Position numbers and translations under genes: made by a program
The notes under the pieces: model-generated
Databases searched by the model: none
Seen by the model: only the letters and a program-made list of their open reading frames with translations
What the model was told of the DNA's origin: nothing
In this document: positions 1 to 63,547 of the stretch, piece by piece
Layout of the letters: every line of letters begins with the position of its first letter
Position numbering within the stretch: the first letter of the stretch is position 1
Assembly (NCBI GenBank): GCA_030248225.1
Contig: JASANE010028048.1
Span: 205,616 to 269,615 of the forward strand
Origin: Trileptium ribeirensis
Lineage: Eukaryota; Nematoda; Enoplea; Enoplida; Thoracostomopsidae
Direction: 5' to 3'
Length of the DNA: 64,000 nt

Positions 1-256
1 AAAATATATGCGAACTATAACACGTAACGCACAGTATATGGTTTTATTTCCAAATTTTAGAGACCAATCAATGATTTATACATTAGGAAGGCAAATGTGG
101 CCATCTAAACCAGGATTTCTACTAAGCGCATTTCAACAAGCTACTCAAAAGCCATATGGGTATCTGTTCTTAGATTTAAAATCAGCTACAGAAAATATTT
201 TGAGAGTAAGAGAATGTATTTTTCCAGACGACGAAGAAATGTTTGTATATTCTTAA
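1..256 (+). CDS. Polinton-type genome-packaging ATPase, C-terminal part (5' end outside window)
   Basis: The reading frame is open from the window edge (codons from base 2) and ends at TAA 254-256, so only the C-terminal ~84 residues are seen. The residues RTITRNAQYMVLFPNFRDQ, the following RQMWP, and KPYGYLFLDLK match by eye the C-terminal part of the FtsK/HerA-like packaging ATPase of Polintons/Mavericks and adintoviruses, which pumps the genome into the capsid. Walker motifs would lie upstream of the window. Position fits: the ATPase is followed directly by small virion genes and then the capsid genes. The stop codon overlaps a TTCTTAAAAAGG motif (250-261) that probably serves the next gene. 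No lesion is visible in this part. Confidence 0.8.
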   Translation, partial: KYMRTITRNAQYMVLFPNFRDQSMIYTLGRQMWPSKPGFLLSAFQQATQKPYGYLFLDLKSATENILRVRECIFPDDEEMFVYS

Positions 257-1570: not shown

Positions 1571-2095
1571 ATGACAGTGGAGCAAATAACTAATATGACA
1601 ATAACTTTAAATTTGAAATGTAACATTGATTTATATTCTTTGTGTATTGATAATTTTGTATATAATGCTGCTCGTTTTAATGGTGGTGTATGGAAATTTA
1701 AACCTCGCGGTACAGTGTTGTTATTTCGCAATGGAAAAATTGTTTTAGTTGGTGTTAAGTCTAAATCGGACGCAGCTTCTATTTTATCCATTGTCGCCAG
1801 CACTTTGAGAAAGCTAGGTTATAAATGTTCGAGTGAGTTACCGATTAATATTAAAAACGTTGCAGGTGTAATGCGTTTGAATATAAATTTCAGTTTGCTA
1901 GTGCTTTATGAGGAGTTGAGGAAGAAATATAAAGTAATGTATGAGCCTGAGTTACACAACAGCCTGCATCTGCGGATAGGAACCTGTACTGCACTTGTGT
2001 TTTGTAATGGAAATGTAATTGTAACTGGATGTAAAAGTATAACTAATTTCAATCAGTGTATAATAAAATTGTATAATATTCTTAAAAAGGATTAA
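1571..2095 (+). CDS. TATA-box-binding protein (TBP) homologue, 174 aa
   Basis: Two imperfect direct repeats of the TBP fold are visible: residues ~5-85 and ~91-173. Repeat 1 has NMTITLNLKCNIDL, ARF and LLFRNGKIVLVGVKS. Repeat 2 has KNVAGVMRLNI, YEPEL and LVFCNGNVIVTGCKS. Of the four DNA-intercalating Phe positions of TBP, three are kept (F36, F52, F144), while the one in the PELF motif is His (H129). The paired DNA-contacting Asn positions also seem present (N8, N96). Length equals the conserved TBP core with no N-terminal tail. TBP nucleates transcription at TATA elements. The gene starts 2 nt after NADAR, suggesting one transcript. Its last codons contain the TTCTTAAAAAGG element of the next gene. 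The ORF is intact but strongly diverged from cellular TBP. Confidence 0.85.
   Translation: MTVEQITNMTITLNLKCNIDLYSLCIDNFVYNAARFNGGVWKFKPRGTVLLFRNGKIVLVGVKSKSDAASILSIVASTLRKLGYKCSSELPINIKNVAGVMRLNINFSLLVLYEELRKKYKVMYEPELHNSLHLRIGTCTALVFCNGNVIVTGCKSITNFNQCIIKLYNILKKD
2079..2090 (+). promoter_or_regulatory. TTCTTAAAAAGG element 2, candidate late promoter of the penton gene
   Basis: Exact TTCTTAAAAAGG inside the last codons of the TBP-like gene, ending 24 nt before the ATG at 2115. Same motif and spacing as the other elements of this block. Confidence 0.5.
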
Positions 2096-2778: not shown

Positions 2779-2943
2779 ATGGCTGTACCGCTGTGTTTTG
2801 CTGGGCCAAAGCTGCCACGAGCTATGTCGGTGAAATCGGTATCTAAGAATACTAGACGTAAAAAGAGAGTTCTTAAAAAGAAGAAAGTTCTTAAAAAGGG
2901 TAAAGTTAAGAAAAAAACACGAAAATATCGCAAACGAAAATGA
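2779..2943 (+). CDS. small, very basic core-like protein, 54 aa
   Basis: From ATG 2779 to TGA 2941-2943. The N-terminal ~15 residues are hydrophobic (MAVPLCFAGPKLPRAM). Residues ~24-54 are nearly all Lys/Arg, including two VLKK repeats, as in protamine-like or adenovirus core/mu-like DNA-condensing peptides. It probably packs the genome inside the capsid; that role is inference from composition and position between penton and major capsid genes. Its stop overlaps the major capsid start as ATGA (2940-2943), typical of compact viral genomes. The two VLKK codon sets create TTCTTAAAAAG copies at 2870-2881 and 2888-2899, 40-58 nt before the major capsid ATG, which may double as promoter sequence. 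Confidence 0.6.
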   Translation: MAVPLCFAGPKLPRAMSVKSVSKNTRRKKRVLKKKKVLKKGKVKKKTRKYRKRK

Positions 2944-4220
2944 ACGTGTGCGGAATCGAAAAGCTGGACTGGTCTGGAGGCCAGTACCCTGCTCAACAGT
3001 CGATCGTGTCTACGCAACTAATCGAAATTTCTTGTGAAACAGCGCTGCCAAGCTCAGATTCAGATGATACATTACGGTTTAAAATTAGTGAAAGTTCATT
3101 TGATGTAATTGATTTATCTCAAATATTTGCATATATTGATTTTCAAGTATTGAGGGGGGATGGAAAGGAAATAAAGGATTTGGCTAAAAAAATAGCACCC
3201 TGTAATATGTTTGGATATGCCCTGTTTTCCACGGTTGAAATGAAAATTAATGGAGAGCCAATAACATTTAATCAAAAGCATTACCCTTGGATGATATATG
3301 TGCTTAACATGTTGCACATGAGTGTAGAGCAACGGAACCAGTATTTGCAAGGAAGTATTTACAAACAAGATGAATATTATGCCTTCGACGATTTTGAGAG
3401 TGATGGATTCATTTACAGAAACGCATTGGTCATGGCATCTCAAAAATGTGAACTCTATTTTCCAATTATTACTGATGTTAATTTAATACCACGATATCTA
3501 CCACCGAAATGTAAGGTCGAGTTTGAGTTCACACGAAGTGTACCATCACTGATACTTCAGCATAATACAGAAGAAAAATATCTTGTTCGTATAAATGACT
3601 TTAAGTTGTATGTATCGAAATCAAAATTGAGCAAGCAAGCATTAGAACATCACAACAAACTTTTAAATGCTAAGTTTCCTGCTATAAGGTATAAAGTTCA
3701 AACACTGTCTGTAAACAAAGGGTTGCAAAATATGGATTGGACAATTTTTGAAGGGACATTACCTAGACGTATATACATTTGGGGAATAACACAGGAGGCC
3801 TATGCTGGTGCACCTAAACTAAATTTATTTAAGTTTAGTTTACCAGATATGGATAGTTTTACGTTGTTTATGAATGACGATCGGTATCCATGTAACGTGC
3901 CTTTACCGTGTAAAACATCTAATGATATGAGATTATTCTACAATACGCTTTACGCGCTAAATTACAGGGCTGATAATCTAGGTTTGAGTGAAGTTGCGTT
4001 TAGGAAAAATGCAGGATATCAAATAATTTGTGTTGATCTAAGCAAGGATCACAGCAGTGATTGTAATTACCTTTCGAACCCAGTAGATGGTCAAATTCGG
4101 CTTTCTATTGATTTCACTAAAGTGTTGGAACAAGCTATAATAGTTTTCGCGATGGGTGAATTTACAGCGGAACTCAACATTAGTGCAAACAGGGAAGTGT
4201 TCTGGAACAAAATGTCTTAA
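2940..4220 (+). CDS. major capsid protein, double-jelly-roll (Polinton PY type), 426 aa
   Basis: The N-terminus MNVCGIEKLDWSGGQ and the segment after it lead into a beta-strand-rich protein. Residues 'DSDDTLRFKISESSFDVIDLSQIFAYIDFQV' region (~41-70), APCNMFGYALFSTVEMKING (~86-105), NQKHYPWMIYVLNML (~111-125) and FDDFESDGFIYRN (~150-162) match by eye the conserved blocks of Polinton/adintovirus major capsid proteins: ligand-like strand, base of jelly roll 1, helix after it. In that family trimers of this protein form the capsid facets. The start is fixed by the ATGA overlap with the basic protein. The ORF is intact and ends inside another TTAAAAGG element. The best-supported structural gene of the element. 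Confidence 0.85.
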   Translation: MNVCGIEKLDWSGGQYPAQQSIVSTQLIEISCETALPSSDSDDTLRFKISESSFDVIDLSQIFAYIDFQVLRGDGKEIKDLAKKIAPCNMFGYALFSTVEMKINGEPITFNQKHYPWMIYVLNMLHMSVEQRNQYLQGSIYKQDEYYAFDDFESDGFIYRNALVMASQKCELYFPIITDVNLIPRYLPPKCKVEFEFTRSVPSLILQHNTEEKYLVRINDFKLYVSKSKLSKQALEHHNKLLNAKFPAIRYKVQTLSVNKGLQNMDWTIFEGTLPRRIYIWGITQEAYAGAPKLNLFKFSLPDMDSFTLFMNDDRYPCNVPLPCKTSNDMRLFYNTLYALNYRADNLGLSEVAFRKNAGYQIICVDLSKDHSSDCNYLSNPVDGQIRLSIDFTKVLEQAIIVFAMGEFTAELNISANREVFWNKMS

Positions 4221-4224
4221 AAGG
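4214..4224 (+). promoter_or_regulatory. GTCTTAAAAGG element 4, candidate late promoter
   Basis: Shorter variant (one A fewer) of the block motif, overlapping the major capsid stop codon and ending 24 nt before the ATG at 4249. A 5-codon uORF starts at 4242 in another frame. Confidence 0.4.
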
Positions 4225-4248: not shown

Positions 4249-4725
4249 ATGGAAGATAAACGTATTATTGGATTATATGTTGTGCTATTTTTAGTTGTTA
4301 TATGTGAAACTGTATTGCTAGTGTTAAATATAAATTGTACACATCAAAATAAACCTCTGTGTTTCGACGACTGGACGAACGGATCAACTGAAAAGTGGAA
4401 CGCTGTAGAGGGTTACGACATAGATTGGCTAAATAAATCGTCGTCAAACCTGCACTTCAACATTCGCCTCAAACCACCTGATACTGCTTGGAGTTCGCGG
4501 ATGGTTTATTTATTCGACGTGTTTGATCATTTGTTCAACAACTTATCGATACAATATCAGCACGGGCTTATACTGGTACGAGCAGTCGGAATTTATCGTG
4601 GATACACTTTCAGTAACTGTTATATGGGTGCACGTTTCATCAAGCACCTGTCAACGTACGACCTGGATAAAGTTTTGCGACAGCAGTATATTAGCATCAA
4701 TATTGTTAAAGCGACATATGGGTAA
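4249..4725 (+). CDS. single-pass membrane protein of the Polinton-like element, 158 aa
   Basis: Residues ~6-27 (IIGLYVVLFLVVICETVLLV) form one hydrophobic segment, either a signal anchor or an uncleaved signal peptide. The remainder is mostly polar with Cys at 30, 38, 123 and NGS/NKS/NLS N-glycosylation-type sites, consistent with a lumenal or external domain. I do not recognise the family. It starts 24 nt after a TTAAAAGG element, and its stop overlaps the next gene by 8 nt, so both are likely co-expressed. Base composition is somewhat more G+C-rich than the capsid genes. Could be a virion or host-interaction membrane protein; this is inference only. Confidence 0.55.
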   Translation: MEDKRIIGLYVVLFLVVICETVLLVLNINCTHQNKPLCFDDWTNGSTEKWNAVEGYDIDWLNKSSSNLHFNIRLKPPDTAWSSRMVYLFDVFDHLFNNLSIQYQHGLILVRAVGIYRGYTFSNCYMGARFIKHLSTYDLDKVLRQQYISINIVKATYG

Positions 4726-5041
4726 TTCACGTTCGAATTTGGTGGACTATGCTCGCAATGTATATCTACAACGCGAAATTGCCTACTGGCAATTCAAGGT
4801 GGACGAATTTCATCGGGAATGTGAAAGAACAGGCGACTATATCGATGGAAAATCGGAATATCAAGTAAAATTATCTCAACTGCTACAACAACGTGCATCG
4901 GTGATCAAGGCGATGAAAACAATAACGAAGAAAATGAATGAAGGATATTCATTAGATCATGCTGTACATTACTTTGCATTTATATATCCTATTGAATTTG
5001 ATTTGTATCGTAATGATATATTGTATTTGTGTAATTTGTAA
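4718..5041 (+). CDS. small helical protein with N-myristoylation-type start, 107 aa
   Basis: The start ATG 4718 overlaps the preceding gene by 8 nt and gives MGNSRSN, a good N-myristoylation signal (Gly2, Ser5/Ser7 region), although an in-frame upstream extension exists. Residues ~17-85 are charged and probably alpha-helical (REIAYWQFKVDEFHRE...), and the C-terminus is YRNDILYLCNL. Family unknown. A clear diverged homologue lies on the other strand at 12810-13217, sharing 'REI.YW....DE', a Gln/Leu-rich helix and the C-terminal ND-x2-Y-x2-C-(N/D)-L. That second copy lacks Gly2. Last gene of the Polinton-like block seen here. Confidence 0.55.
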   Translation: MGNSRSNLVDYARNVYLQREIAYWQFKVDEFHRECERTGDYIDGKSEYQVKLSQLLQQRASVIKAMKTITKKMNEGYSLDHAVHYFAFIYPIEFDLYRNDILYLCNL

Positions 5042-6504
5042 GTAAAGAAAAAACAAAAAACCCGTGGCTGATCTGCACAGCTATCGTGGAGCGGCCCCTA
5101 CGGCGATGGGGTAGTCTGGCTTTACGCTGGGCTGGGGATTATCCCCCGTGGACCATTGCAAGAATGTATAAGAATTGCACCACAGCAGCATACAGCTGTG
5201 TTCACATAATCATGTAGTACCGTACCATGAGTGGTGCGTCTACAAATCTCAGAGTATATCTGAGTGCACATCATAACACTATAAACCATAAACTTCTTCT
5301 TTGTAACCGTGCGCCCGTTTTGTACTAACTTAGCATACTGTTATCGTTTTGTTTATTAATTTGTGTCATATTCTATGTTACCCAAACTATCAAATTTTTC
5401 CTTAGTCTTGTATGAGTTCAAACATAGCTATTAACATATCCCCTTATTCTGATAAAACTCTTGTCGTGTTCATGTTGATTGCATCTGAAATAATATGTAC
5501 CTCACAATGTATCTAGTGCAGCTCTAGATGTATTAGTAGTGACATACGTGCGAACTTCTCTATGTAGTGTGTGCGCCGACAATTTTACCGTTGTGTAAAC
5601 CAAAAAATATATCACATATTAAAGTGAAAATTATCTGCAACCGTATTTAGCGCAAATAAGCGTAATATTATATTCCACAGCTTACACTTCGGTGATCAAT
5701 GATACACATTGAGGTCCTTGCATTAGCAGGATCAGGTGATTATACTTGAGTAGGTTCTGTCTTGAAATGTTGCATGGAATATGGTAACGCAGCCCGGATG
5801 CAGGCACTAGTTTGTATTTATATGATGTGAAAGCTTTAATCATTTTGGTGTTGTAATGTCCTTATTGATGGGTAAAGCATATATACTATATGTATAAAAT
5901 ACGTGTAAGGATATATAAACTTTTTGAGGTTTTATCATCATACAAGCAATGTATATATATATATATGCGTGTGGGGACATATATCCCTATGTAAATTTAA
6001 ACATCCTTGATGAAGCGAAAGGATATAGCCTCATGTTATTGCAGAGTTGCAGCCTGTATCACTGTTATTTTGCCCTGATTGTTGTTTAACCCCTGCTCTA
6101 GAACAGGGGTACGTGAACAGCAATGTGCCTAAAAACCTGCAGCTGATTAATCGAACCCAATAACAAAAAATTGGAGACTTGCGGAAGTTGCTGAATTATA
6201 GCTATTGCACAATAGTTGCGTAGTACACAATCATTGGTAGACAACAGGTGATCTAGCTTGCGGGGAAATAATATATTAAATAATATTTATAATTGTTAAG
6301 AGCTAATTTTGTTAATTTCTGTTCCTACATAGGTAATCGCTAGTGAGTGAGTGATGGTCTGTGATTAATAGTTAATAACTACACATTTATCGCATATGGC
6401 TTGCATTTAACCTACAGCAGAAAAAATGATCATAGCGGCTTACGGTGAATTAATGTGTGCTAGCACCAGGTATACCTCAACACTAACTAACTTTATACCA
6501 AATT
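5042..6504. other. intergenic region after the Polinton-like block
   Basis: No convincing ORF. At ~5070-5155 there is an unusually G+C-rich stretch with short inverted repeats (e.g. GGGGATTATCCCC at 5136-5148) that could fold; I cannot match it to a known RNA. A short TA run lies at ~5950-5966. Around 6410-6490 is a block repeated at ~8020-8075. A Polinton terminal inverted repeat would be expected beyond the last gene but cannot be recognised without the other end. Confidence 0.4.
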
Positions 6505-6788
6505 TTAGTTAACATTCCCATACGCATCAAAATCTTTTTTATAGTAGTCCATAACGTCTTCAATGTTGTTGAAATTATTCATTTGATTCTTTGAATTTGT
6601 TGCCAATTGGTTAACATAGTGATCAATTTTGCTATCAATGTCTTTAAAGTTGTTAGAGTCAGCACCATTGTATAGATAACCGTTTAGACTGATGTTATTA
6701 TCATCTTCTTGGTAATATTTTAGTTCCATGACTGATCTATAACGCGGTTGACACGTTGTTCCTGATGTGATCTTGGCTGCATCGGTAA
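6505..6788 (-). CDS. predicted last exon of the zinc-finger gene (exon 1 at 8256-8592)
   Basis: The - strand frame runs to a stop at 6505. Its 5' edge fits a splice acceptor: TTTGTTTTCAG ends at 6789-6790 and the exon begins at 6788 with two bases that complete a codon. The donor at 8256 ends after one base of a codon, so both fit in phase to give about 206 residues in total. Encoded residues are acidic/Asn-rich (QEDDNNISLNGY, NNFNNIEDVMDYYKKDFDAY) with no domain I recognise. Pairing of the exons is inference from phase, orientation and lack of better candidates; extra exons in the 1.47-kb intron cannot be excluded. Confidence 0.4.
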
Positions 6789-8255
6789 CTGAAAACAAAT
6801 ATCATAAGTAGTATGGAATCAGTGTGCAAAAACATGTTTTACCTTACGGGTTTAGCGAAGGTTATAATTCTGTTCTAAGTATATAGTAACTGTGATTTAA
6901 GAGCATTACGTACTTATTTTTCGCTCATTGATTACATAGAGCTATAGAAGTGTTAAAAACACACTATCCATGGATACTTGAGCAGTGAAATTTAAGCCAA
7001 ATGTGTAAATTCAATCGTAATTCGTACGTAGCAACGTCAAAGCTGACTGGGTTCAGAAATTTGCTGCCTGTTTAATGCAGGAGCAAACTTAAGGTGCGAG
7101 GCTTACCATCCTATTTTGACAATAGCGATTGGTGATCGCTTGTTCAATGAACAAAAGATTCTTTAAAGCGTAAATGAACAGAAATTAGGAGTATTGGACA
7201 ATGCACATAAAATGTTAAGGAACCAAAAACTGCCCAATCAGTAATTGGGTCGAAAGTGTTAACATAACGCACAACTGCCTGATTGCGATTTAGAGCGAAA
7301 AATCGTAATTTTGTTTCGGAAAGCAAAAACACCGTTTTTGCATATCGCATGTAATATTTCAATTATGTTAGCGAACAGTCAGATCTTAAAGTACAGGAAC
7401 CGATTTGCGATCGCATTTTGTGTTCAGTGAACACAAAATAACAAATTTTCGGATCCATCAGCCTGCGTTCACTGAACGCAACCCCAAGCCTACAGTATTG
7501 AAACAGATCACTTAGCATTTGGTGCACAGCTGAAAAAGGGGTCATATTGATTTCATGCTGCTTAATGTCTGAATGCACTTAGGTATAACCCAAATGTAAA
7601 AACACCCATTTTAGAGTTGGTATGTAATATTTGATGTGTGTTCGTAGACAGTCAGTGCTTAAGGTAAAGGTACAATTTATGATCACATAATATGGTGTTA
7701 AGTGAACAGACTAGATGCTTCACAGATTGAACTTCTTGGGGTCATAAGCTTTCATTTGAGCCATCCTGTGCAGAGGTGCTCCATGGCAGTCAAAAGTTAT
7801 GCTGAATGCAGCGAAAACAAACGGACATAAGCCAAATTTCGACCACAATAGGCTATTTGTAAAGGCAAAATAAGAAAAACGGTTCGTAAAAAACCTAAGA
7901 TATGTGATACGAAAAGCGTAGGTTGCGTTCACTAGACCAAACTACAAAGTATCATTCTGGTAAGTATCAAAATTCGAAACCTTTTTGTGTTGAGAAATGT
8001 GTTTTGCCAACCTGCAGCAGAAGACGAATTAATGTATGCTACTACCTAGGGTATACACCCAGTGGTTAAAATTAGAGATTTCTAGTTGCATATATCTGCG
8101 TGCGTTGAAAGTAAATTGGATAAGGTAGCAAACAGGACTTATGCGTTAGCCTGCAAGATGAATTTACAGTCATCACATACTAATTGTTACAGTACTGAAA
8201 ATTTCGTTTAATTAAAAAGAATTATGCATGAGCAAACTTAAGTCGGGCCACTTAC
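6789..8255 (-). other. putative intron with internally repeated blocks
   Basis: Bounded by GTAAGT (8255 leftwards) and TTTTCAG (to 6789). It contains copies of sequence also found elsewhere: a CTTAAGGTGCGAGGCTTACCATC block at ~7085-7112 (donor-like on the - strand), a block at ~8020-8075 matching ~6410-6490, and two related blocks at ~7360-7440 and ~7640-7720 around a CAGTCAG...CTTAA core. The small - strand ORFs here show no family signal. Confidence 0.35.
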
Positions 8256-8592
8256 CATGTCGTATAAACTGTTGCTTAGCATAAATACTTTCTAAATTAC
8301 GCTGCGAAAATGGTGCGTCGCGGCACTCATACTTGTGTTTTTTGCTTGTCACGCAATTTTCAATATCATCGTCTGATATATCTGAGTATTTATCCTCAAT
8401 ACTGCTAGCTTTGCAACGCTGTTGTTGATTCATGTGAGCTTTTAAATTATCTTTACGGTTATAGCAACGTCCGCAGCGGCTACATTGATTCCGACTATTT
8501 TTGTGCAGAGAATGTATATGACGACTCAAATTTGATTGATATAAAAATATCTTACTACATTCACTACATCTATATTTGCGTTTAGAATACAT
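8256..8592 (-). CDS. C2H2 zinc-finger protein, first coding exon
   Basis: Starts with MYSKRKYRCSEC at 8592. Two zinc fingers are seen: residues 9-30 with C-x2-C-x12-H-x4-H, and ~37-60 with C-x2-C-x12-H-x6-C (C2HC variant). An acidic stretch follows (IEDKYSDISDDDIEN). The exon ends at 8256 before a strong donor (ATG|GTAAGTGG). Such a protein would bind nucleic acid, probably as a transcription factor. The frame continues a few codons past the donor to a stop at 8212, so an unspliced 126-aa form is also possible. The donor block (GTAAG...ACTTAAGTTT) occurs in at least two decayed copies nearby. Not assigned to host or virus. Confidence 0.6.
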
Positions 8593-8614
8593 AATTTGGC
8601 TGCGTGAATTATGA

Positions 8615-9091
8615 TTAAAGTTCTTGTATATTATAGTTATTTTTATACGTTTGTAGCTCTTCAGTGTTCTTCAATATAAAAGCTGTAATAACTGTTAGAC
8701 CTTCCAGCACCACCACTGCTACATATCCATCATTTCCCCATCTATCCTTTCCAACCATACAGTTAAAAATCTTAATGCATTCAATCCTGTTTTCCTTATT
8801 GTCAATTAACCTCTTTTTTGTATTATAATATCGCACTCCCTCAGCTATAGTTTCTCTTAACACACGTTTGAAGTTGTTGTTAAACAAGCTCTTCCCACAT
8901 TTTCTGTAAGTTCCAGTGTGAAGTCTTTCGAAATGCTCAGACAAAATGTAGGTACAATTTTTTACGACCAGATTTACCATCTGTAAAACACACAAATATT
9001 TCCTATAATGTACATTACCACAAAAGAAATTAAATATTTTTGTGCTCACTGAACACAGAAGCACCTCTATCTGCGAGACCCTAACCACCAC
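8615..9091 (-). CDS. unknown protein, up to 158 aa
   Basis: An open - strand frame 23 nt upstream of the zinc-finger start. An alternative start is Met38 (codon at 8978-8980), which sits directly after an acceptor-like TTTGTGTGTTTTACAG, so this may be an exon. From Met38 the protein has mixed charged/hydrophobic helices and a C-terminal segment RWGNDGYVAVVVLEGL followed by a hydrophobic stretch. I do not recognise the family. Its upstream region (9117-9260) carries the repeat block found before other - strand ORFs of this cluster. Real coding status is moderate: length and composition are good, but there is no homologue in the window. Confidence 0.4.
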   Translation of the reverse strand: MVVRVSQIEVLLCSVSTKIFNFFCGNVHYRKYLCVLQMVNLVVKNCTYILSEHFERLHTGTYRKCGKSLFNNNFKRVLRETIAEGVRYYNTKKRLIDNKENRIECIKIFNCMVGKDRWGNDGYVAVVVLEGLTVITAFILKNTEELQTYKNNYNIQEL

Positions 9092-9116
9092 ACATTGCTG
9101 AACGATTCCTATAAAA

Positions 9117-9260
9117 TTACTATTTTCTAGCTATGTTTTGTTAACTGTTTACCGGTTGTGGTGTTAACCAAAGGAAAAATGTTGAACTTGTTACGAACAC
9201 TATAAATCCTGCTGTTCACCTTCAACATGCAAGAGACTCGCATCAAAATTTTTAAAATTC
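9117..9260 (-). repeat. upstream repeat block, copy 1
   Basis: Contains TTTTCTAGCTATGTT, then a GTGTTAAmC segment and TTCACCTTCAAC-AAGAAAC-like end. Similar blocks lie at ~9400-9590, ~11330-11480 and ~13230-13460. Located just upstream (on the - strand) of the ORF starting at 9091. Confidence 0.5.
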
Positions 9261-9399
9261 CATTTTTGGGTGATGGTTTAAACCTTGACTTATTGGTCGA
9301 AAGCGATTGATCTGGTAAAAATTGAGTTTACAGTAAAGTGTTAGCGCTCGGTGAGAGTTGTCTACGACTGCGCGCCCATTCTAGCTACCTGTAAACTTG

Positions 9400-10874
9400 T
9401 AAATTAAAAATGGTGATATTTGACCAATTTCGAGTTCTAATAATGACCATTTCGAACCATTCTGAAACCTCTTAGAGTGTAACAACGTACCGATTGTGGT
9501 TTTAAAACAAATTATCTAACACGTTCAACGGGTTAAATAACCCTATAACCTATTCACCGTCAACAACTAAGAAACTCCAATTATCCAAATTTTTTTATTT
9601 TTTATTTTTTTACTTTTTATTCACTTTTTATTAGGCATATTTTATACTTTGACTCATAGCTAGAAAACGATTTCTCTGAGAAAAAATTGTAGTGTAGTAA
9701 ATTTGTAGTTCTCGATGGTAGTATTCTGGTTGGTGGTCTACATTGTTTGATCCAACACCTCTGAAAAAAATTAGAGTTAAATGTTTTCGGGGAACATATG
9801 GTCAAAATCACGAAGTGGTACATAGGTGTGACTTTTTGTATTGTTGGTCAGAAAAAATGCTACTAACTAGGGCATTGATTTTAACAATATAGAGAATTAT
9901 GTAGCACAACAAAAAAGGCTTTCGAAAATTCGCCTATTCGGTAATGGGTTATAGATGTGATGGACAACCAAAAAAAAGATTTTTACTTCGTTAATCCATT
10001 ATTTGAGGAAATTGAAATGGCTCTATATGTCACTGATACAGTAAAAGTGGAATTTGACCAAATGGAACATGCAATCGAAAATTTCCTAAAATGACACTTT
10101 TTCAATATCAAATTTTCACTTTGGAAGGCAAAAAATTTGTTACCACCAGCAACAACAGCTCTGCGTGTCATACCGAATATTCGGAATTAAATGTACTAGG
10201 GCCATATACTACTACGGTAGTTGGGAATGCCTGTACATCTGTAAACTTAAGGTGTGACCTTTACCATCCACTTTTATCAAAAAGCAATTGTTAAAAGGTT
10301 TTTAGATAACAAGCAATCCATTTTTCTATCAAAGAACAGAAATTACGTTACTTGTAAACTAATGCTAAACGTTATCACGCCACAAATGGACAGGTAATAA
10401 AAACGGTAGCGAGCAGCTTACAGTCAATTCGGACTTCGACCGCAATTTTTCTTGTACTGAGGGAGGCAAATACGCCCGTTTGTATTTTCCGTTTTATTTT
10501 ATATTATGTTTTGGCCAATTGGTCCTTATAATAAAGCAGTCGATTGTTAATCGCTTTTTGTGTTGTAGAACAGAAAAATGTCGAAATCATGTTTCTGCAT
10601 TCCACGTCGCTGAACGTAACTGATTTGATTTATGAAATGGGCACTGTAAAAACGAACAGAATTTAGGTCTTTTTCGCGATCTGCCCACAATGTTTATGAA
10701 CGAAAAACCTTGAATTTCTAAACTGGTACTGAAATTTGATTGTTGTTATCTAACAACATTGTGTACATGGTTTCAAAAGATGATAAAGGACGCATCTTAA
10801 GCTTAGTCAGGTATAATATACACTTACTCACATGCTTTGTAATGACTTACATTATGAACAATAAGCATAAACAT
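9400..10874. repeat. tandem unit 1 of a ~1.9-kb degenerate duplication
   Basis: Three blocks recur in the same order about 1.87-1.93 kb further on: 9400-9590 matches 11330-11480; 9632-9815 (CTAGAAAACG...CTCTGAG..., then CCAACACCTCTGA) matches 11485-11690; and 10020-10200 (GAACATGCAATCGAAAA, then CCAGCA) matches 11890-12060. Also holds a third CTTAAGGTGTGACCTTTACCATCC block at ~10243-10272, related to the zinc-finger donor region. No supported gene in this stretch. Confidence 0.5.
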
Positions 10875-11144
10875 TTAATGTCCACGTTTCGGTAACCGAT
10901 AGCGTGTGATAGCAAGTCGCCATAGTAGTCGGTACCCTATAGGTACGAAACCCAACTCAACTAAAGCCCGTCTCACTTCCCCTTCAGTGAAAATACTGAA
11001 GTCTAAGCAAGGACTATCCTTTGTATGATGACCAATCCCGTTTCCATCATCTATGCAATCACCACAGTTGGATCGCCTTAGCTGCCAAATACATTTAATA
11101 ATTTTGTTTACTAATTTTTGAGTGTTTGGGGACTGTAGATACAT
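10875..11144 (-). CDS. doubtful ORF, 89 aa
   Basis: The frame has a fairly protein-like composition (WQLRRSNCGDCIDDGNG, then TEGEVRRALVELGFVPIGYR) and lies downstream of a copy of the cluster's upstream repeat block (11330-11480), as do the ORFs at 9091 and 13217. No family recognised. It could be an exon of a decayed cluster gene or chance. Confidence 0.25.
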   Translation of the reverse strand: MYLQSPNTQKLVNKIIKCIWQLRRSNCGDCIDDGNGIGHHTKDSPCLDFSIFTEGEVRRALVELGFVPIGYRLLWRLAITRYRLPKRGH

Positions 11145-11329
11145 ATATTTTAGGATATCGATGTTGCGTGTTGCTTTTACATGACATCTCAGCTCAGCTT
11201 TCGAAATTATTTTTTGTTACACAAAATGCAGTTATCCATATTGAGTAAAATAAAGCCTAAACGCCACGTACATAAATCGAAGCCTCAAGTGGCGAAAAAT
11301 CCCAACTACCGGACATTGCTGAGCTTTAC

Positions 11330-12809
11330 TATAAAATTCACTGTTTTCTAGCTATGTTATCTTAAATGTGTCTCAAATGCGGTGTTAAAACAAGGGAACC
11401 GACAGGTTAACGTGTTAAATAAGACTGTCCTTCACCCTTAACAAACAAGAAACTCAAATTATCTAAATTATGAAAATGACACCTTTTATTGAACACAGTT
11501 TAAAGTTCGGCTTGTAACTAGAAAACGGCTGCTCAGAGAAAAAAGCGTCGTATAACAAAAGTTCTCGCTGAGGGGATCCCGTTAATTTCCTACATTATCT
11601 GTGCCCACATTTTCCTACATTCTATGATTCGACGCCTCTGAGGAAACGTGTGATTCAAAATATTCTGAGGCCTCATATGCCTAAAATCTTTCAATTATTT
11701 GGCGCCTTCAAGATTTTACACTGCCTTGAAACTCATGGCGCGTTACTTATACGCTTCCTCTCAGAACAACATATTATGCAACTCTCAGCGCTGAATCTAA
11801 TGATCGCCGCGGAATTGCTCTGCAACTAATATTCATTTAGTTATTGCCGTTCAAATTTTAAAATATTTTGCGCCTCCGATTGCTCACCTCGACATTTTAC
11901 ATACACTATAACATTAAGATAGAACATGCAATCGAAAAACTGCCAAAACTAAATTTTGTTAAGTATCTAATGTTCGCTTTGGTGTATTTAAAAATTAATT
12001 ACAGCCAGCACGAAAACCTGTGCGAGTAATACCAATTACTCAAATTTAAATCTACCTCTCCTTGCAGGAAAAATTCAATTGTTTCAACTGTTGCTCGATA
12101 ACGGAGGAAGATACATTGAAATATTTATACATGTTTAGGTGCAATATTAGACACATCCGTTAATGCGTTTCAGAGTTATAAATTTTGCAATGAAATTTTG
12201 GTCTTTTATATGCTATATAATGTAAAATGGTCCTAAAATAGTCTTTTCAATACTAACGATATAGGGGTTGAATTTACAAATTTGACGCTAACTAGAGGGC
12301 ACTAGAGAACATCACTGACTTAAAGCGGACCAGGGGTTCGCGAGTTATAGTTCTCACCAAGTACTTATGTACTCTAGCCATGTGATTAAATCCTTCAAGG
12401 CTCAGTACCTACGGTGTTGGGAATTCTTTACAATGACTGATATTAATATAGGTATATGCAAACAAATAAATACAGTAAATAAATCTGAGATTGAACTATC
12501 TTCTGGCACCAAAATGATCCAGAACGAGTGAAGTGTCGCTGAGTGATAATCAGAAGTGGAAAAACCGACCCTTTTACGCAAAAAAAAATAAAATAAACGA
12601 TAATACAGGATCTGTCGAGCGTACGACCGGATTGACCCGACACACACATAACAACTGTGCAAAAACCCACAGAACATTGGTGTATAAAAATAACGGATCT
12701 TAAAAACAGTTTGCAAAAATCCGTCGATAACACGCGAAGTTATGAAATCATAGACAAACATTCACTCTAGACGCTAGCAACCTATTTGGAGAAACTCTCT
12801 TCGCTCGTT
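11330..12809. repeat. tandem unit 2 of the ~1.9-kb degenerate duplication
   Basis: Matches unit 1 block by block (see 9400-10874) at clearly reduced identity, so the duplication is old. The overlapping - strand ORFs at ~12402-12761 look like chance. No gene supported. Confidence 0.45.
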
Positions 12810-13217
12810 TTAAACAAGATCACACACTACATACCATACATCGTTCTGACAATATAGCGTATATAAATGTCGTATTTGAGGACCCACAAATACATAGCTA
12901 CGTGATTTTTCCACCTTCAGAATATCCAAACTCTCCAATATGGATTTTCCACTAGCAACGTGATTGTTCATATAAAGTAGTAGTTCCAGCATATCTTTCC
13001 GCTGACTTTGTAATAACTCAAGCATCTGTTCTGCATACTCAAATTCTTTTCTATGTTTCTTTGTTTCGAAACAGTGTAGATAGCATAGATCCAAATTTGA
13101 AGTGAGAAACCGTATTTTAGCGTATAATTCGTCATATCTCATTCTCCAATATTTGATTTCACGAATTAAAAATTGATTTCCCAAATATATTAAAAAATTT
13201 TTGTAAACAGCGTCCAT
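12810..13217 (-). CDS. diverged homologue of the Polinton-block protein at 4718-5041, 135 aa
   Basis: Starts MDAVYKNFL at 13217 and stays open to 12810. Alignment by eye with the 4718-5041 protein: LIREIKYWRMRYDELY against LQREIAYWQFKVDEFH, a shared Leu/Gln-rich helix (LLQSQRKDMLELL against LLQQRASVIKAM), and C-termini NDVWYVVCDLV against NDILYLCNL. It is about 25 residues longer, with an insert in the middle. The N-terminal Gly of the myristoylation-type signal is absent. This suggests that the 6.4-13.5 kb cluster contains, or derives from, another virus-like element. Upstream sequence 13230-13460 is one more copy of the cluster's repeat block. Function unknown. Confidence 0.5.
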   Translation of the reverse strand: MDAVYKNFLIYLGNQFLIREIKYWRMRYDELYAKIRFLTSNLDLCYLHCFETKKHRKEFEYAEQMLELLQSQRKDMLELLLYMNNHVASGKSILESLDILKVEKSRSYVFVGPQIRHLYTLYCQNDVWYVVCDLV

Positions 13218-13229
13218 TAATTTCTAAAA

Positions 13230-13460
13230 GAAGATCGCGAACAACTACGCGTCCGTTATCGCTGCCTCGGGAATGTTCAATTGGAAGAATGTCAAAATTT
13301 GACCAATTTTAGGTGCCAAAAATGACTATTTCGAACCCGCTGCAGCCTTCTACATACCCATTGGTCTTAAAACAAAACACAACACTTTTAACGCGTTATA
13401 TAACACTATAAAGCCGTAGGTCACCTTCAACAAGCAGGAAACTGACAATCAAAATTTCTT
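13230..13460 (-). repeat. upstream repeat block, copy 4
   Basis: Resembles 9400-9590: GACCAATTT...AATGAC(C)ATTTCGAAC, then TTAAAACAAA...CACGTT/TTTTAACGCGTT, then CACTATAAAGCC...TCACCTTCAACAAGCAGGAAACT. Lies immediately upstream of the - strand ORF starting at 13217. Confidence 0.45.
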
Positions 13461-13789
13461 TTTTGGCTAGCCCCGACGCCGGTAGAATTCTAACCCCGGT
13501 GCAACAGTAGTAAAGATATGATTTAGGAGGTGGAAACATAAACCGAAGTGGAATTAGATCAGCAAGTTGTGTACTGAAAAAAATTAACTAGTATATTGGT
13601 AACTCCCAAACGAGAGATTTGTTCACTGTGTTCACACACATTTATTTATGCACGACAATCATGAATCACTAAAATTTTTTACAATGATCGAAAAAATATT
13701 CCTCTCATCGTTTTCAACGTAGTCGAAATCTAGTGCCACGAGTTTTTTCATCAAATCTCGAATTTTCGGGATTTTGCGCTTTGACTTTA

Positions 13790-13935
13790 AAAGTTTTTTG
13801 AAATCGGTTCATTGGTTGCTGATATACAGCGGAGCGAACGAACCAACGAACGGACATTGACTTTTTGCCCACAACCAGAAAATAATAACGCTTCGCGAGG
13901 TCACTTCGCAACTTCGCTGCGCTCAATAACAGATA
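13790..13935 (+). repeat. interspersed repeat, copy A (LINE 3'-tail type)
   Basis: AAATCGGTTCATTGGTTGCTG..., GAACGAACCAACGAACGGACATTGACTTTTT and AAATAATAACGCTTCGC recur at 17610-17735. This kind of ACGAACGGACA-rich tail is common at the 3' ends of invertebrate LINEs; assignment is tentative. The stretch 13460-13790 shows nothing else. Confidence 0.4.
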
Positions 13936-14154
13936 TTGAAAAGGAAATTTTGGCAAAGGTTACCTTTACAGTGGTCGATACCATCACATAGGGTGGTGTG
14001 AAAATCGAGCCAACTCCGAAGGAACGAAGACTACGAAAGAAAAATACAAACTGATTGTAAGAAATCGAGCGAACTCAGAAAAACAACCAAACTCTATGAA
14101 AGAAAACACAAACTGATGGTAAAATTGAAGAAACACGACTTTACATACTTTTTC

Positions 14155-15000
14155 AGCAAGGATATATATCCTTACACGTATGCAAAACCTAGCGGTGGTA
14201 GGGATATATGATTACCCCTCAATACACACATTATATAATATGTGAAGTATATAATATATATGTATTAAGGCTTTTCTCACCCATAAGGATATGTATCCTT
14301 ATAAGGATATATACAGACCTACCCTCCGTAAGGATATATATCCTTACGTATATATAATACATATGTAAGGATATATATCCTTACCCCTCAATAAGGATAT
14401 ATCCTTATAAGCTTATATAACACGTATGCGAAACCTCGCGGTGGTAGGGGTATACTTTACCACTCAATAAGGATATATATCCTTACAATATATATTATAT
14501 ATTAATACAGACTTTCCTTCCCCTCAGTAAGGATATATATCCTTACCCCTCAATAAGGATATATATCCTTATAAGCTTATACAAAGGATATATATCCTTA
14601 TAAGCTTATATCCTAACACGTATGCAAAACCTTGCGGTGTTCGGCAAAAATATATCCTACCCCTCCATAAGGATATATCCTTACGCGTATATAATACATA
14701 TAGTATATATAAGGATATATCCTTACCCCTCAATAAGGATATATCCTTACGCTTATATTATACATATAGTATATATATAAGGATATATAGCCTTACCCCT
14801 CAATAAGGATATATCCTTACGCGTATATAATACATATAGTATATATATAAGGATATATATCCTTACCCTTCAATAAGGATATATCCTTACACACATATAA
14901 TACATATATATATTACACACAGACCTCCCCCTCCGTAAGGATATATATCCTTACAAGGATATATATCCTTATAAGGATATATATCCTTATTGAGGGGGGG
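14155..15000. repeat. satellite-like array of AAGGATATATATCCTT palindromes
   Basis: About 19 copies (counted by eye) of a perfect palindrome, AAGGATATATATCCTT or its two-base-shorter form AAGGATATATCCTT, usually flanked by TA/GTA and spaced by CCCCTCAA. A higher-order unit of about 70 bp (palindrome, CCCCTCAA, palindrome, then a CGCGTATATAATACATATAGTATATA linker) recurs near 14708, 14779 and 14848. A second motif, GCAAAACCT(A/T)GCGGTG, recurs near 14181, 14427 and 14625. No coding capacity. Related half-sites occur around 5908. Confidence 0.8.
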
Positions 15001-15047
15001 CAGAACCCCCATTTTACATCTACTATCGTACTTTTGAGCCGCCTTTT

Positions 15048-57436: not shown

Positions 57437-58099
57437 ATGCCGGGAGGTATTGAGAGGACACCATGTGGATCCCAAACCGAGAACCGTATCATGGAAAATC
57501 GTTATGGATACCGAGCGGTTGAGATTAAAAATATTCCGTTATACAGTGGGAACTTTGGAGATGATTTTGAAGAGTGGCTCGGTACATTTGAGAGAATAGC
57601 TCTGGCGAATGAGTGGAGTCATCCTGAAATGGCACGGCTGCTGCCTGCGTATTTACGGGATGAGGCTCCGCGAAAGTGGGAAGCCCTTCCTCCTGGGATT
57701 CAAAAAAATTACGAGCTCGTTCGAGCATCGCTTAAAGAATATCTCATATCTAAAGAAACAGCTAATCAATACAGTATGCAACTACGCACACGTAGTCAGG
57801 GGTCAAAAGAGCCAGTGGAAATCTATGCAAGAGATATAGAACGACCGGTGAGGAAGGCTTATCCAACAATAGATGCTGAAAGTAGAGATCGTATTGCTAT
57901 GGATAACTTCTTGAATGGGCTTAAAAATTCAATCAAGAGATTCGCCATGACCTCCAATCCTACTTCCATGCAGGCAGCTATCTCTAGAGCGTGCGAGCAA
58001 GAATGTTATGAGCGAATGGATGAGCCTTCTAATCCGGATGATGCAAAATTAAAAGTAATGTTTACAAACGCAAAAAACCTGAATTTTCAAATAGCTTAG
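57437..58099 (+). CDS. gag: capsid region
   Basis: ATG 57437, 162 nt after the primer-binding site. NIPLYSGNFGDDFEEWLGTFERIA (~35-58, shown in part), a WSHPEMARLLPAYL-type helix and the APRKWEALP and NYELVRASLKEYL segments match the retrotransposon gag capsid fold, followed by YARDIERPVRKAYP and FLNGLK. A zero-frame A AAA AAC heptamer lies at 58072-58078. A -1 shift there joins the frame that encodes the nucleocapsid; without it, translation ends at 58099. Either programmed frameshifting or a one-base indel explains this. Matrix-like N-terminal part is short. Confidence 0.75.
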   Translation: MPGGIERTPCGSQTENRIMENRYGYRAVEIKNIPLYSGNFGDDFEEWLGTFERIALANEWSHPEMARLLPAYLRDEAPRKWEALPPGIQKNYELVRASLKEYLISKETANQYSMQLRTRSQGSKEPVEIYARDIERPVRKAYPTIDAESRDRIAMDNFLNGLKNSIKRFAMTSNPTSMQAAISRACEQECYERMDEPSNPDDAKLKVMFTNAKNLNFQIA

Positions 58100-58803
58100 A
58101 GTCAAAAATGGAGGATATGATAAAGATAAATAGGGAATTGCTCCAAGCGGTCGTCGACCTTAAGGATAAGACAAACAACAACTCAAGAAATTCAGCCCCT
58201 GAGCAAATCAGAGGAAGGATGACAAATGATGGTAGGAAGATATGTGATTTCTGCAAAAGACCTGGGCACATCAAATTTAACTGTCCTCAAAGACGGGACA
58301 CTTTTTCACGAACCCTTTTTCGGGATAGGATACCTCCGAACGCTAATCGATGGCCTCCAAATCCACCCCCTCAGCATTTCTGGCAACCTAGAAATTTTCA
58401 AAATAGCAACGGACAGGGGTCACCTTTTCAAGCATGGCGAGTATCTGCGGCTCAATCAAATCAATGCCGCGGGCATACCGATCTACGAGACGAGTCTAAC
58501 GATGTGGGACAAAAGGCGGATCAACGAAATGTTGATGAGAGAGTAAATGAATGGAAAATAGAGGTCTCGCGACTACGAGAGCAGAATGAAAGGTTAGCCA
58601 ACAGAATCATTGAAGGTGAATTTTCTCAATCACCTGCACACTCAACAATGATGTGCCATTTCCAGAACTCAACATCGGGGAACTTTGAGAATAATATTTA
58701 CGCGACGATGACATACTTTGACATTAAGCCGAAACAGGATGATTTGGGACAAATATATGAAAAGCCTAAGTCTTTCGTTGGAACACACAAAAAAATAATT
58801 TGA
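58079..58803 (+). CDS. gag: nucleocapsid with CCHC zinc knuckle
   Basis: The frame is open from the slippery heptamer and stops at 58801-58803. It carries CDFCKRPGHIKFNC, a perfect C-x2-C-x4-H-x4-C knuckle, at 58243-58284 or close, which binds genomic RNA. It is followed by Pro/Asn/Gln-rich sequence and a charged coiled-coil-like stretch (VNEWKIEVSRLREQNERLAN, partial) near 58540-58600. ATG at 58108 could also initiate. The next frame begins one base before the stop (58800), again shifted by -1, after a run of seven A (58789-58795). Confidence 0.75.
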
Positions 58804-59741
58804 CAGAGGTTACTGATAAATCTAAACTCACAGAGTTAAAAAACGTGGCGGTTAATAAAAGATACCTTTTCGCTCAGGGAGAGTGTTCAAACAGAGATAA
58901 AAATCTGACGCCACTCTTTACACATTTAATTCCAAATATCTTGACGATTAACCTTTGTTATACAGATATGGCGAATAATCACATGGCCGTTTTTCCAACA
59001 AGCGGACAACAATTTGTCGGAGGTGTGCCGCCTGGGCCTTGCTGGGCCCCTCGTAGGGCATACCCAGAACGTCAACCTCTTGGCCCGGGAGCAAAACATC
59101 GGGCGGTTATTGAATCGGCGGAGAGCCCAAGATCTATTTGGGTGTCTCTACCAAGGGAAAAATGTTATATGGACCTTATAAACGCCAGTTTTCCACTCGT
59201 TGAAGAGCTCATCACGTTGGAAGAGAAGGAGATCTGGACGGAAAAACGAGTAATTGTTGTAATGGCTGGACAAGCACTCCGGGGCGTCGTGACATCGATC
59301 CCGGGTCGGTGCCAATATAACGTTTGGCTAGTTGATGTTGGCAGGGGCAATCTCTGCGGTATAACAGAGGTATATGAAATGCCTCGACACCCAGTTTTAG
59401 CAAACACCCCGGCACAAAGTTTTCAGGTGGAGCTCAATAACGTTATGGCGCCAAATGGTCGAGCGGAGTATGGCCGATATTCCTTCAGCTTTATGCAACG
59501 CCTCGTAAATCAGGAGGTATATTTGAAATTTATAGAACGGGGATTAGAAAACAGATATATCGTAGATATGACGGTGGGATTACAGCATGGAGTAAGCGAG
59601 ATGGTGGTCGCGCAAGGCCTAGGGCAATTTGGGAATGTTGTTTTGCGCGCAATCCTGGGCAATTATAATGTTGTTTTGCCCAGGATTTTCAGACCGCAAG
59701 TGCGGTATATACTGAACCTGATCCAAAAAAACAAAAGCTAA
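58800..59741 (+). CDS. extended Tudor domain segment of the retroelement polyprotein
   Basis: No ATG is needed if made as part of a polyprotein; the frame has 313 codons. Residues ~105-270 match an extended Tudor domain: ESPRSIWVSL start, a helical stretch, YNVWLVDVGRGNLCGITEVY (the 'V.fVDyGn.e.V....l' barrel core with Asp and Gly kept), then EMPRHP, PAQSFQVEL (the 'lp.qa..c.L' strand), the GRYSFSF segment and LVNQEVYL. Tudor domains of this kind bind symmetrically dimethylated arginine, typically on Piwi proteins, in germline granules. The aromatic cage is only partly conserved (VDV for VDY). Ends at TAA 59739-59741; a zero-frame A AAA AAC heptamer at 59726-59732 leads by -1 into the NADAR frame. 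Upstream residues ~60-90 are Pro/Gly-rich. Confidence 0.75.
   Translation: MTEVTDKSKLTELKNVAVNKRYLFAQGECSNRDKNLTPLFTHLIPNILTINLCYTDMANNHMAVFPTSGQQFVGGVPPGPCWAPRRAYPERQPLGPGAKHRAVIESAESPRSIWVSLPREKCYMDLINASFPLVEELITLEEKEIWTEKRVIVVMAGQALRGVVTSIPGRCQYNVWLVDVGRGNLCGITEVYEMPRHPVLANTPAQSFQVELNNVMAPNGRAEYGRYSFSFMQRLVNQEVYLKFIERGLENRYIVDMTVGLQHGVSEMVVAQGLGQFGNVVLRAILGNYNVVLPRIFRPQVRYILNLIQKNKS
59651..59688. repeat. 12-bp inverted repeat (hairpin) before the Tudor/NADAR junction
   Basis: AATCCTGGGCAA and TTGCCCAGGATT are perfect inverse copies separated by 13 nt. AATGTTGTTTTGC also occurs twice here (59635 and 59664), suggesting a small duplication. It lies ~38 nt upstream of the A AAA AAC site. Confidence 0.6.
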
Positions 59742-60142
59742 TTGTAAAAAGATCAAGCGTAATATGGGAGAATAAGAAGGCATGGTTAACATCAGGACTA
59801 GCGTTGAAGACAATGTTTTATGGTAACTTAGTAAAGTTTACTAGTTCATCAATGCTAAAAGGTTCTTTATTAAACACCGGCAATAAATATCTAGCTGAAG
59901 CTAGCCCCAATACGATATGGGGCTGTGGGTTAACGGTTAAACATCAAAATGCCTGGAATGTCAGAAGACATCATGGCAGGAATTGGTTGGGGAAAATCTT
60001 AATGATCATTAGATTAAAGCTTCGCTATGAAGAAGACAACGGCATTAGAAATACGATTTCTGAACGACAGTTGATGGTTCCGGATTTGGAAATTTTTGTG
60101 TTTACACGGGAAAGCGTGAAAGCGGGAGAATTCAAGATTTAA
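59732..60142 (+). CDS. C-terminal half of a NADAR domain in the retroelement polyprotein
   Basis: The frame continues after the -1 heptamer. SSVIWENKKAWLTSG, then LKTMFYGNLVKF, LLNTGNKYLAEASP, IWGCGL and NWLGKILMIIRLKL correspond to the NADAR blocks 'M...L..KF......LL.TGD..L.EAS..D..WG.GL' and 'NWLG..LM.VR..L'. The N-terminal NADAR half with FSNF and the catalytic-type Glu is not seen, so enzymatic activity is doubtful for this copy. The last ~35 residues lead toward protease. Ends at TAA 60140-60142, 18 nt before the pol ORF used here, which is again in the -1 frame. It is not closely similar to the Polinton-block NADAR at 1056-1568, so I infer independent capture. Confidence 0.75.
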   Translation, partial: QKLIVKRSSVIWENKKAWLTSGLALKTMFYGNLVKFTSSSMLKGSLLNTGNKYLAEASPNTIWGCGLTVKHQNAWNVRRHHGRNWLGKILMIIRLKLRYEEDNGIRNTISERQLMVPDLEIFVFTRESVKAGEFKI

Positions 60143-60159
60143 ACAAAATTCCTCTTATC

Positions 60160-62600: not shown

Positions 62601-63011
62601 AAGGCTCCCCTATATTCGATCCTTATTTCGACTAAACCTTTTGATATAGTGGCAGTAGACTGTGTGGGACCTTTAAAGCAAACTGAGCAAGGGAATAAAT
62701 ATATCGTTGTGTTCACCGAGTATCTAACTAAGTGGGCTGAAGCGTTTGCTGTACCAAACATAACGAGTGAAACGATTGCGAGATTAGTAGTTGAAGAGAT
62801 TATGTGTCGATACGGAGCACCCTCGAAATTACTGTCAGATCGTGGTGCAAATTTTATGAGCGAGTTAATTAAGTGGATATGCCATTTCACAGACACGAGG
62901 AAGTTAAATACCTCTCCTTATAGGCGGTCAACTGATGGGCAGTGCGAGCGGTTGAATAAAACCCTTATAATCATGCTTTCTCATTATGTTAATACCGCCC
63001 ACACTGATTAG
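62601..63011 (+). pseudogene. pol: integrase catalytic core, after a frameshift
   Basis: The core frame has Asp (codon 62658-62660), Asp (62838-62840) and Glu (62946-62948), a D-D35-E triad, with flanks AVDCVGP, LSDRGANF and GQCERLNKT. The core starts out of frame with the zinc domain (shift near 62600) and ends at an in-frame TAG (63009-63011). It then resumes (YLNFILSAYRTAIHEST) and loses frame once more in a T-rich run near 63080-63090. At least two frameshifts and one or two stops mean this copy cannot make a full integrase. Confidence 0.8.
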
Positions 63012-63547
63012 GATAAGTATTTGAACTTCATCTTGTCTGCTTATAGGACGGCAATACATGAGTCTACAAAGGAGACTCCTTTTTTCTTCTTTATGGTAGG
63101 GACCCTCGTTTTCGGGTCGAGATCGGTTTAGGTTCCTATAACCTATTATAAATTGATTCTCTCGAGGGCTATCGAGAAACCTTAGTAACTGGATTAGAAA
63201 TAGCTCGGAAATTGGCATCCGACAATATTGCAAGTGCACAGCAAAAGCAGCAATATAATTACAATAAAAATGCAGTGGACCATAAATTACAGGTGGGACA
63301 GCGAGTGTGGTATTATTGTCCTGCCGTAAAAAAGGGAAAGACCCCCAAACTATGCCATCTGTGGCACGGGCCTTATCGGATAATTGAATTTACAAGCGAC
63401 GTAAATGTACGTATAAGACCTTGTAAGGGGACAAAGTCAGATAAAATCGTTCATGTTAATTTTGTAAACCATGTTTTGGTAACTTTGGTAAACCTTATAA
63501 CTCGTTGGGAGATGGAAATGGCACAGGCATTGATGAGTGCGAGGTGA
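63012..63547 (+). pseudogene. pol: integrase C-terminal part with GPY/F domain
   Basis: After the lesions, a frame from about 63180 is open to TGA 63545-63547. It carries LEIARKLASDNIASAQQKQQ, VGQRVWYYCP and WHGPYRIIEFTSDVNVRI, i.e. the typical integrase C-terminal region and GPY/F module, ending IVHVNFVNH. The open part is intact; 63012-63180 holds a stop and frame changes. Confidence 0.75.

Follow-up and report, generated by a model that had tools for sequence, protein, structure and literature searches.

The window, a stretch of 64,000 nucleotides from Trileptium ribeirensis, begins inside an element of about 23 kb whose remainder lies upstream on the same contig (locus L021). At positions 1571 to 2095 it carries a gene of 174 amino acids in which profile match and alignment identify two TATA-binding protein (TBP) repeats; this gene lies on the plus strand, as do the other element genes and boxes given with window positions below unless noted. 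The gene directly upstream (1056 to 1568, 170 amino acids) belongs to the NADAR family (PF08719, E = 1.2e-36), and 2 nt separate its stop codon from the start of TBP. Downstream lies an ORF of 206 amino acids (2115 to 2735), called penton-like because of its place in the gene order, so that the TBP ORF sits between the two neighbors named in the initial annotation. The NADAR protein also matches the phage family phrog_1017 (E = 4.2e-42).

The upstream part of the element, in L021, contains an ORF of 175 amino acids, an ORF of 1352 amino acids with C2H2 fingers, and an integrase of 353 amino acids with rve and chromo domains (PF00665, E = 9.3e-12; PF00385, E = 4.4e-11). The 1352-residue product has motifs that we take to be DNA-polymerase-B-like, and no polymerase appears among its Pfam and PDB matches listed. 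Tandem repeats of the GGGGTACAAA type occupy L021:8680-9340, between the integrase gene and the box at L021:9389 that precedes an A32-like packaging ATPase. This ATPase starts at L021:9423, and its 3' end reaches into the window (1 to 256); PF04665 scores above the cut-off in the ATPase copies at L042 (E = 4.6e-6) and L022.

Within the window, a small ORF starting at 289 is preceded at a distance of 37 nt by a CTTAAAAAGG box (252 to 261). A conserved ORF of 137 amino acids (523 to 936; PROlike523, a label only) has a CTTAAAAGG box (436 to 444) 99 nt before its ATG at 535, and a region resembling the terminal inverted repeat of the element (962 to 1025; 87.5% over 64 nt) lies before NADAR-TBP. 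Further CTTAAAAAGG boxes are found at 2081 to 2090, overlapping the 3' end of TBP and 34 nt before the penton-like ORF; at 2742 to 2751, 37 nt before a small basic ORF of 54 amino acids (2779 to 2943); and at 2890 to 2899, 50 nt before an ORF of 426 amino acids (2940 to 4220), with a one-mismatch variant at 2872. The latter ORF is a candidate for the major capsid protein (MCP), named mainly by its place in the gene order; it has no sequence match in the PDB, and its relative in L028 gives a sub-threshold match to Capsid_N (E = 0.017). A CTTAAAAGG box at 4216 to 4224 overlaps the MCP stop codon and lies 33 nt before a conserved ORF of 158 amino acids (4249 to 4725), one of two further ORFs that follow the MCP. 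No adenovirus-like protease was recognized by Pfam among the ORFs scanned, which include one ORF within 5041-13943.

The element closes with a terminal inverted repeat on the minus strand (13943 to 15033). The left repeat lies at L021:1735-2591 (C18448:197434-198290); the two match at 94.7% over 628 nt, and additional pieces match more weakly. Read by eye, the ends are AGTAGA...TCTACT, similar though not identical to the doubled AGT ends of vertebrate Mavericks described in PMC8097293, and no target site duplication is seen by eye beside them. The inverted ends consist of many palindromes of the AAGGATATATATCCTT type and are minisatellite-like (L021:1777-2380; window 14150-15000). For about 9 kb of the element (5041-14000), 22 other loci contain no DNA match at E ≤ 1e-10; a C2H2 zinc-finger ORF is found on the minus strand (8212-8592) inside the stretch 5041-13943. 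Elsewhere in the window, a Ty3-like retroelement with reverse transcriptase, RNase H, and integrase occupies 57437-63783, and a separate ORF in that region (58800-59741) shows a weak Tudor match below the cut-off (E = 6.7e-4). The rve-chromodomain integrase, the A32-type ATPase, and the long inverted ends are shared with Polintons/Mavericks. The core list of vertebrate Maverick genes given in PMC8097293 (int, ppolb, atp, pro, MCP, mcp, pz, and pw) contains no TBP; the initial annotation, too, was not aware of TBP as a usual Polinton gene.

The TBP homologue and its copies in the genome

The element-encoded TBP is a real and conserved homologue. A Pfam profile search with PF00352 gave 104.2 bits for the window protein, against a curated cut-off of 22.9 bits, which rules out a chance match, and its predicted fold is the two-repeat saddle; both checks had been proposed in the initial annotation, and together with the integrase, the ATPase, and the inverted ends they confirm a TBP homologue within a Polinton/Maverick-type element. 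A comparison of folds with BFVD placed giant-virus TBPs among the best matches. Three of the four canonical intercalating phenylalanines are kept, as noted from the outset, and the equivalent of the fourth, F190, is His129 in the window protein. A host TBP gene or pseudogene is ruled out as well: the host TBP lies as separate pieces on contig C9496, and the element TBPs fall in another clade.

A search of the 687-Mb genome (20,229 contigs) for TBP gave at least 150 matches above the cut-off (150 scored of 975 candidates, all of which pass), on 138 contigs by a hand-typed list, a count that includes the host TBP contig and may include duplicated haplotypes. The corresponding search for the MCP gave at least 98 matches (98 scored of 1641 candidates, the window copy included), with 69 to 100% identity and mostly stop-free. 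Among 34 loci chosen by their TBP, two are the host TBP, and the other 32 represent 27 places. NADAR adjoins TBP at 26 of these 27 places (L011 ends with its contig) and at all eight of L036 to L043, in total 34/35, and the pairing is present in both TBP clades described below. The closest sister copy examined, L042, is identical to the window at 99.4% in NADAR, 97.6% in the penton-like ORF, 93.7% in TBP, and 93.2% in the ATPase.

These loci were all picked by TBP, and the MCP places provide a check. Among the matches listed, a TBP lies within 3 kb upstream of the MCP at 35 of the 98 places, and the other 63 have no listed TBP there. Twenty-two of those 63 were examined (L050, L051, and 20 regions of 1.5 kb), and TBP is present in 18 of the 22 (two partial, L060 and L069). 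In L051, L056, and L070 the DNA upstream of the MCP lacks TBP and shows little or nothing of the penton-like ORF, as if the segment had been interrupted by other DNA. L063 has neither NADAR nor TBP, its flanking genes being otherwise adjacent, and still carries the box before its MCP frame, which contains two stops; possibly this is a dependent copy served in trans.

The TBP gene is under constraint and travels with the element. Of 17 codon-aligned TBP pairs tried, 15 yielded a ratio, and dN/dS was 0.10 to 0.44 in 14 of them, including two (L026/L038 and L025/L043) that contain an N-terminal stretch overlapping NADAR in another frame; the fifteenth pair, L022/L037, gave 0.80. TBP identity tracks that of NADAR (n = 16), the penton-like ORF (n = 13), the ATPase (n = 12), and the MCP (n = 8), with Mantel r values of 0.90 to 0.94 and none of 999 permutations as high as observed.

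The TBP tree comprises 42 rows (28 Polinton, 11 cellular, and 3 giant-virus-like) and was rooted at the midpoint, with long branches flagged. All 28 Polinton TBPs form one side of a branch with support of 100/99, split into a main clade of 22 rows (98/92) and a far clade of 6 rows (100/99), the latter including P0002 and P0003 (ENA); the cellular and the giant-virus-like rows all lie on the opposite side. The tree suggested in the initial annotation thus sets the element TBPs apart from cellular TBPs, while a grouping with giant-virus TBPs, represented by three rows only, did not appear.

Searches in public sets were mostly empty and therefore reveal little of the element lineage. As a single query, P0001 had no match at E ≤ 0.001 in a set of 5.8 billion proteins, in which the TBP profile A1 found 593 matches; of the 120 listed, 12 were placed in the tree, where P0002 and P0003 joined the far clade and the other ten joined the cellular side. 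Profile A1 retrieved four loci from IMG/VR, whose neighboring genes we take to be giant-virus-like, whereas IMG/VR searches with P0002, the MCP, ATPase alignment A4, and MCP alignment A3 gave no match, and a search of all proteins with the MCP profile was equally negative. Among 50,697 phage records, a single match reached E ≤ 1e-5, namely the TBP of the haloarchaeal virus HRTV-9 (26.9% identity).

Promoter boxes of the two TBP clades

In the window element, CTTAAAAAGG precedes gene after gene, and exact copies are absent from 6001-64000. Starts were placed in the window and 35 loci and were dropped when no ATG lay within 45 nt of expectation or less than 90 nt of upstream sequence was available; the start of the small ORF was adjusted manually. 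The loci omitted were L003, L006, L008, L009, and L018 (duplicates), L011 (contig end), and L001 and L010 (host). Across the main clade, CTTAAA occurs upstream of 104/106 starts of eight genes, picked after the table was seen, against a mean of 4.7 and a maximum of 11 in dinucleotide shuffles. The same eight genes have it in 64 of 66 lineage-gene combinations, with lineages grouped by hand. Taking all main-clade starts together, CTTAAA lies between -75 and -18 at 119/197. The genes with high counts are ATPase (16/16), p214 (13/13), INT (6/6), PolB (1/1), PENT (27/28), basic (6/6), MCP (26/26), and o4249 (9/10), and those with low counts are TBP (8/30), PROlike523 (5/28), NADAR (2/28), ORF2860 (0/4), and o4523 (0/1). 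The distance from box to start codon is mostly 30 to 45 nt.

Word counts that include the PROlike523, NADAR, and TBP starts found CTTAAAA between -60 and -20 at 48/94 main-clade starts, compared with 12/94 in the wider control interval of -150 to -90. Held-out MCP starts, many of them kin of lineages already examined, carry the box at 21/22, the exception being L067 with CTTTAAAAGG. The box is strongly oriented, with 125 sense and 8 antisense occurrences in 18 main-clade loci, and the 48.9 kb of window sequence that lie outside the element hold nine main-type boxes and one far-type box in all. Before the ATPase and INT genes the box is intergenic, which excludes codon conservation at the 3' end of TBP as its source. 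The looser TATAWAW occurs at 8/106 box-gene starts, which is the shuffle level (8.0).

The far clade has a different box. CATRAAAA is found at 15/15 of its non-TBP starts and CTTAAA at 0/15, and in the word count CATGAAAA appears between -60 and -20 at 9/19 far-clade starts versus 0/19 in the -150 to -90 control. The spelling is CATAAAAAG at most sites of L028 and CATGAAAAG in L029, L030, and L040. In the four far-clade loci CATRAAAAG has 36 sense and no antisense occurrences, and the box of the other clade gives counts of 5 to 0 in main-clade loci and 1 to 1 in far-clade loci.

The NADAR-TBP pair has a promoter region of another kind. In the main clade, TATATAAAG lies within 150 nt before NADAR at 16/28 starts, representing 8/13 lineages, against a shuffled mean of 0.07 starts, and it is found at none of the 106 box-gene starts (0.41 expected), as is TATATAAR (3.2 expected). 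The sister copy L042 has TATATAAAG in the region before NADAR-TBP, and the window copy has a degenerate box there; TATATAAAG also occurs within the left inverted repeat (L021:2387-2395). The lineages of L022, L027, L034, and L005 have no TATATAAR before NADAR. In copies of the L027 type, TBP is itself preceded by CTTAAAAG, and in the far clade CATGAAAAG precedes NADAR. With 2 nt between the NADAR stop codon and the start of TBP, the two genes probably share one transcript.

TBP residues and the reading of the boxes

The C-terminal stirrup of TBP (yeast F190, P191, and F207) kinks the 5' end of the TATA box, and the N-terminal stirrup (F99 and F116) kinks its 3' end. The main-clade box retains the canonical AAAAG at its 3' end and differs in its 5' half (TATA to CTTA). 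In the main clade, F190 is replaced in all 22 rows (H in 17, Y in 3, Q in 1, and N in 1) and P191 by N in 22/22, while F99 and F116 are kept in 22/22. The far clade has F116W and N159S in 6/6 and keeps F190 in 6/6. T124 is lost in all 28 Polinton TBPs, being V in 22/22 of the main clade, and the DNA-contacting Asn69 (27/28, with one gap) and Phe99 (28/28) are conserved. At positions 186, 188, and 189, which we take to be TFIIB contacts, the main clade has E (21/22), E (22/22), and L (17/22), and the far clade has E at 186 in only 2/6, having lost it in 4/6. For the basic helix, which reads ARKYAR in cellular TBP, the mean net charge is -0.3 in the main clade, 2.7 in cellular TBPs, and 2.2 in the far clade.

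Since the element has its own TBP gene and a nonstandard box before most of its genes, it likely turns on these genes with its own factor rather than that of the cell. The TBP homologue probably replaces the cellular TBP at the element's own CTTAAAA(A)G boxes, which lie mostly 30 to 45 nt before the starts of most gene types. Computational evidence that the element has a dedicated promoter box is strong, and we infer that the element TBP is the protein that binds and reads it. According to this model, the host TBP would start the NADAR-TBP transcript from the canonical TATATAAAG, after which the element TBP would bind the CTTAAAA box and recruit host TFIIB and RNA polymerase II, the recruitment being proposed because main-clade TBPs retain the stirrup residues that contact TFIIB. 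A box changed in its 5' half and unchanged in its 3' half would fit a C-terminal stirrup that has lost its Phe-Pro pair. Loss of the ARKYAR helix may weaken control by TFIIA, NC2, and Mot1, an insulation argued for the main clade only, because the far clade keeps this helix. The presence of CATGAAAAG at far-clade NADAR genes and the pattern of L027 indicate that a cascade beginning with a host box is not universal. The initial proposal that the element sets its own promoter specificity is thus supported at the level of sequence by the shared box, the second-clade box, and the canonical TATA before NADAR-TBP.

The boxes might instead be promoters read by a host factor, be it host TBP on a weak box or a protein of the MADS-box type, with the element TBP doing another job, such as competing with host TBP. 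We consider this unlikely, even though the box is A/T rich with the canonical 3' half AAAAG and CTTAAAAAGG presumably resembles CArG/MEF2 sites: the box differs between the two TBP clades, and the distribution of TATATAAAG, found at NADAR-TBP in 8/13 lineages and at none of the 106 box-gene starts, is as expected from different readers. The L063 copy, which keeps its MCP box without NADAR and TBP, would fit a host reader, but other copies may serve it in trans, and two stops interrupt its MCP frame. Co-divergence of box and TBP, resting on two TBP clades and three box spellings, could arise from shared ancestry alone.

It is improbable that the box serves 3'-end formation or RNA processing of the gene upstream of it, or acts in replication or packaging. 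In this compact genome it does often overlap the end of the upstream gene, as it does where TBP ends (2081) and at the stop codon of the MCP (4216-4224), but its distance is fixed relative to the next start, its strand bias is pronounced, and the ATPase box of the window element lies 744 nt past the end of the INT ORF and 34 nt before the ATPase start. Still less probable is that the element retains a captured TBP as a passenger or a decoy that has no DNA-specific function. The incomplete set of intercalating residues and the missing ARKYAR helix of the main clade could be read in that way, but not the mostly low dN/dS, the single clade with deep splits, the coinheritance with element genes, and the retention of Asn69 and Phe99.

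Known systems and significance

The proposed cascade, from host TBP to element TBP to element boxes, would work like that of the herpesvirus TATT-box factors. According to PMC4893493, EBV BcRF1 and MHV-68 ORF24 are TBP-like proteins associated with a TATT box at late promoters, most early promoters having TATA; the identity of the TBP-like protein to TBP is only about 10%, and in vitro BcRF1 does not discriminate between TATA and TATT. The herpesvirus factor belongs to a six-member complex (PMC6541308). Both systems combine an encoded TBP-like protein with a noncanonical TATA box. Unlike these factors, the Polinton TBP is recognizable by sequence, is carried by a small integrating element, and is paired with CTTAAAA(A)G or CATRAAAAG boxes rather than TATT.

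Larger viruses also encode TBPs. TBP is reported in 59% of mirusvirus genomes (PMC10132985), sporadically in mirus-like heliorhodopsin mobile elements of the green alga Cymbomonas (PMC10675990), and in seven families of large double-stranded DNA viruses (PMC11410667), and megavirus additionally encodes its own RNA polymerase (PMC11464507). Giant viruses are thus alike in having a virus-encoded TBP, but the three giant-virus-like relatives from IMG/VR fall with cellular TBPs; HRTV-9 likewise encodes a TBP, but it is an archaeal virus whose hosts use TBP natively. The words TBP and TATA are absent, apart from an author name, from the main texts of PMC11071296, PMC11071308, PMC10120064, PMC4028283, PMC8097293, and PMC12220804, and literature searches, mostly of papers outside subscription, retrieved no recognizable description of a TBP in a Polinton or adintovirus. 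The promoter boxes of a TBP-bearing Polinton have been unreported until now.

Small DNA viruses and transposons usually depend on their hosts for general transcription factors. A more far-reaching reading, which we put forward tentatively, is that transposon families within one animal genome run private transcription dialects, the TBP of each clade, with its changed DNA-touching residues, reading its own respelled box (CTTAAAAG, CATAAAAAG, or CATGAAAAG), and the canonical host TATA serving in the main clade as the ignition that first yields TBP. Mobile elements would then have respelled the TATA code, regarded as nearly frozen in animals, and insulated it from host TBP. If the element TBP does read these boxes, the pair would let the element, living in a transposon-silencing host, control when its capsid and replication genes are expressed, and the expression timing of Polintons would become testable, because early and late genes could be predicted from the box alone. 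The two clades would also offer natural TBP-box pairs showing how the specificity of TBP can change.
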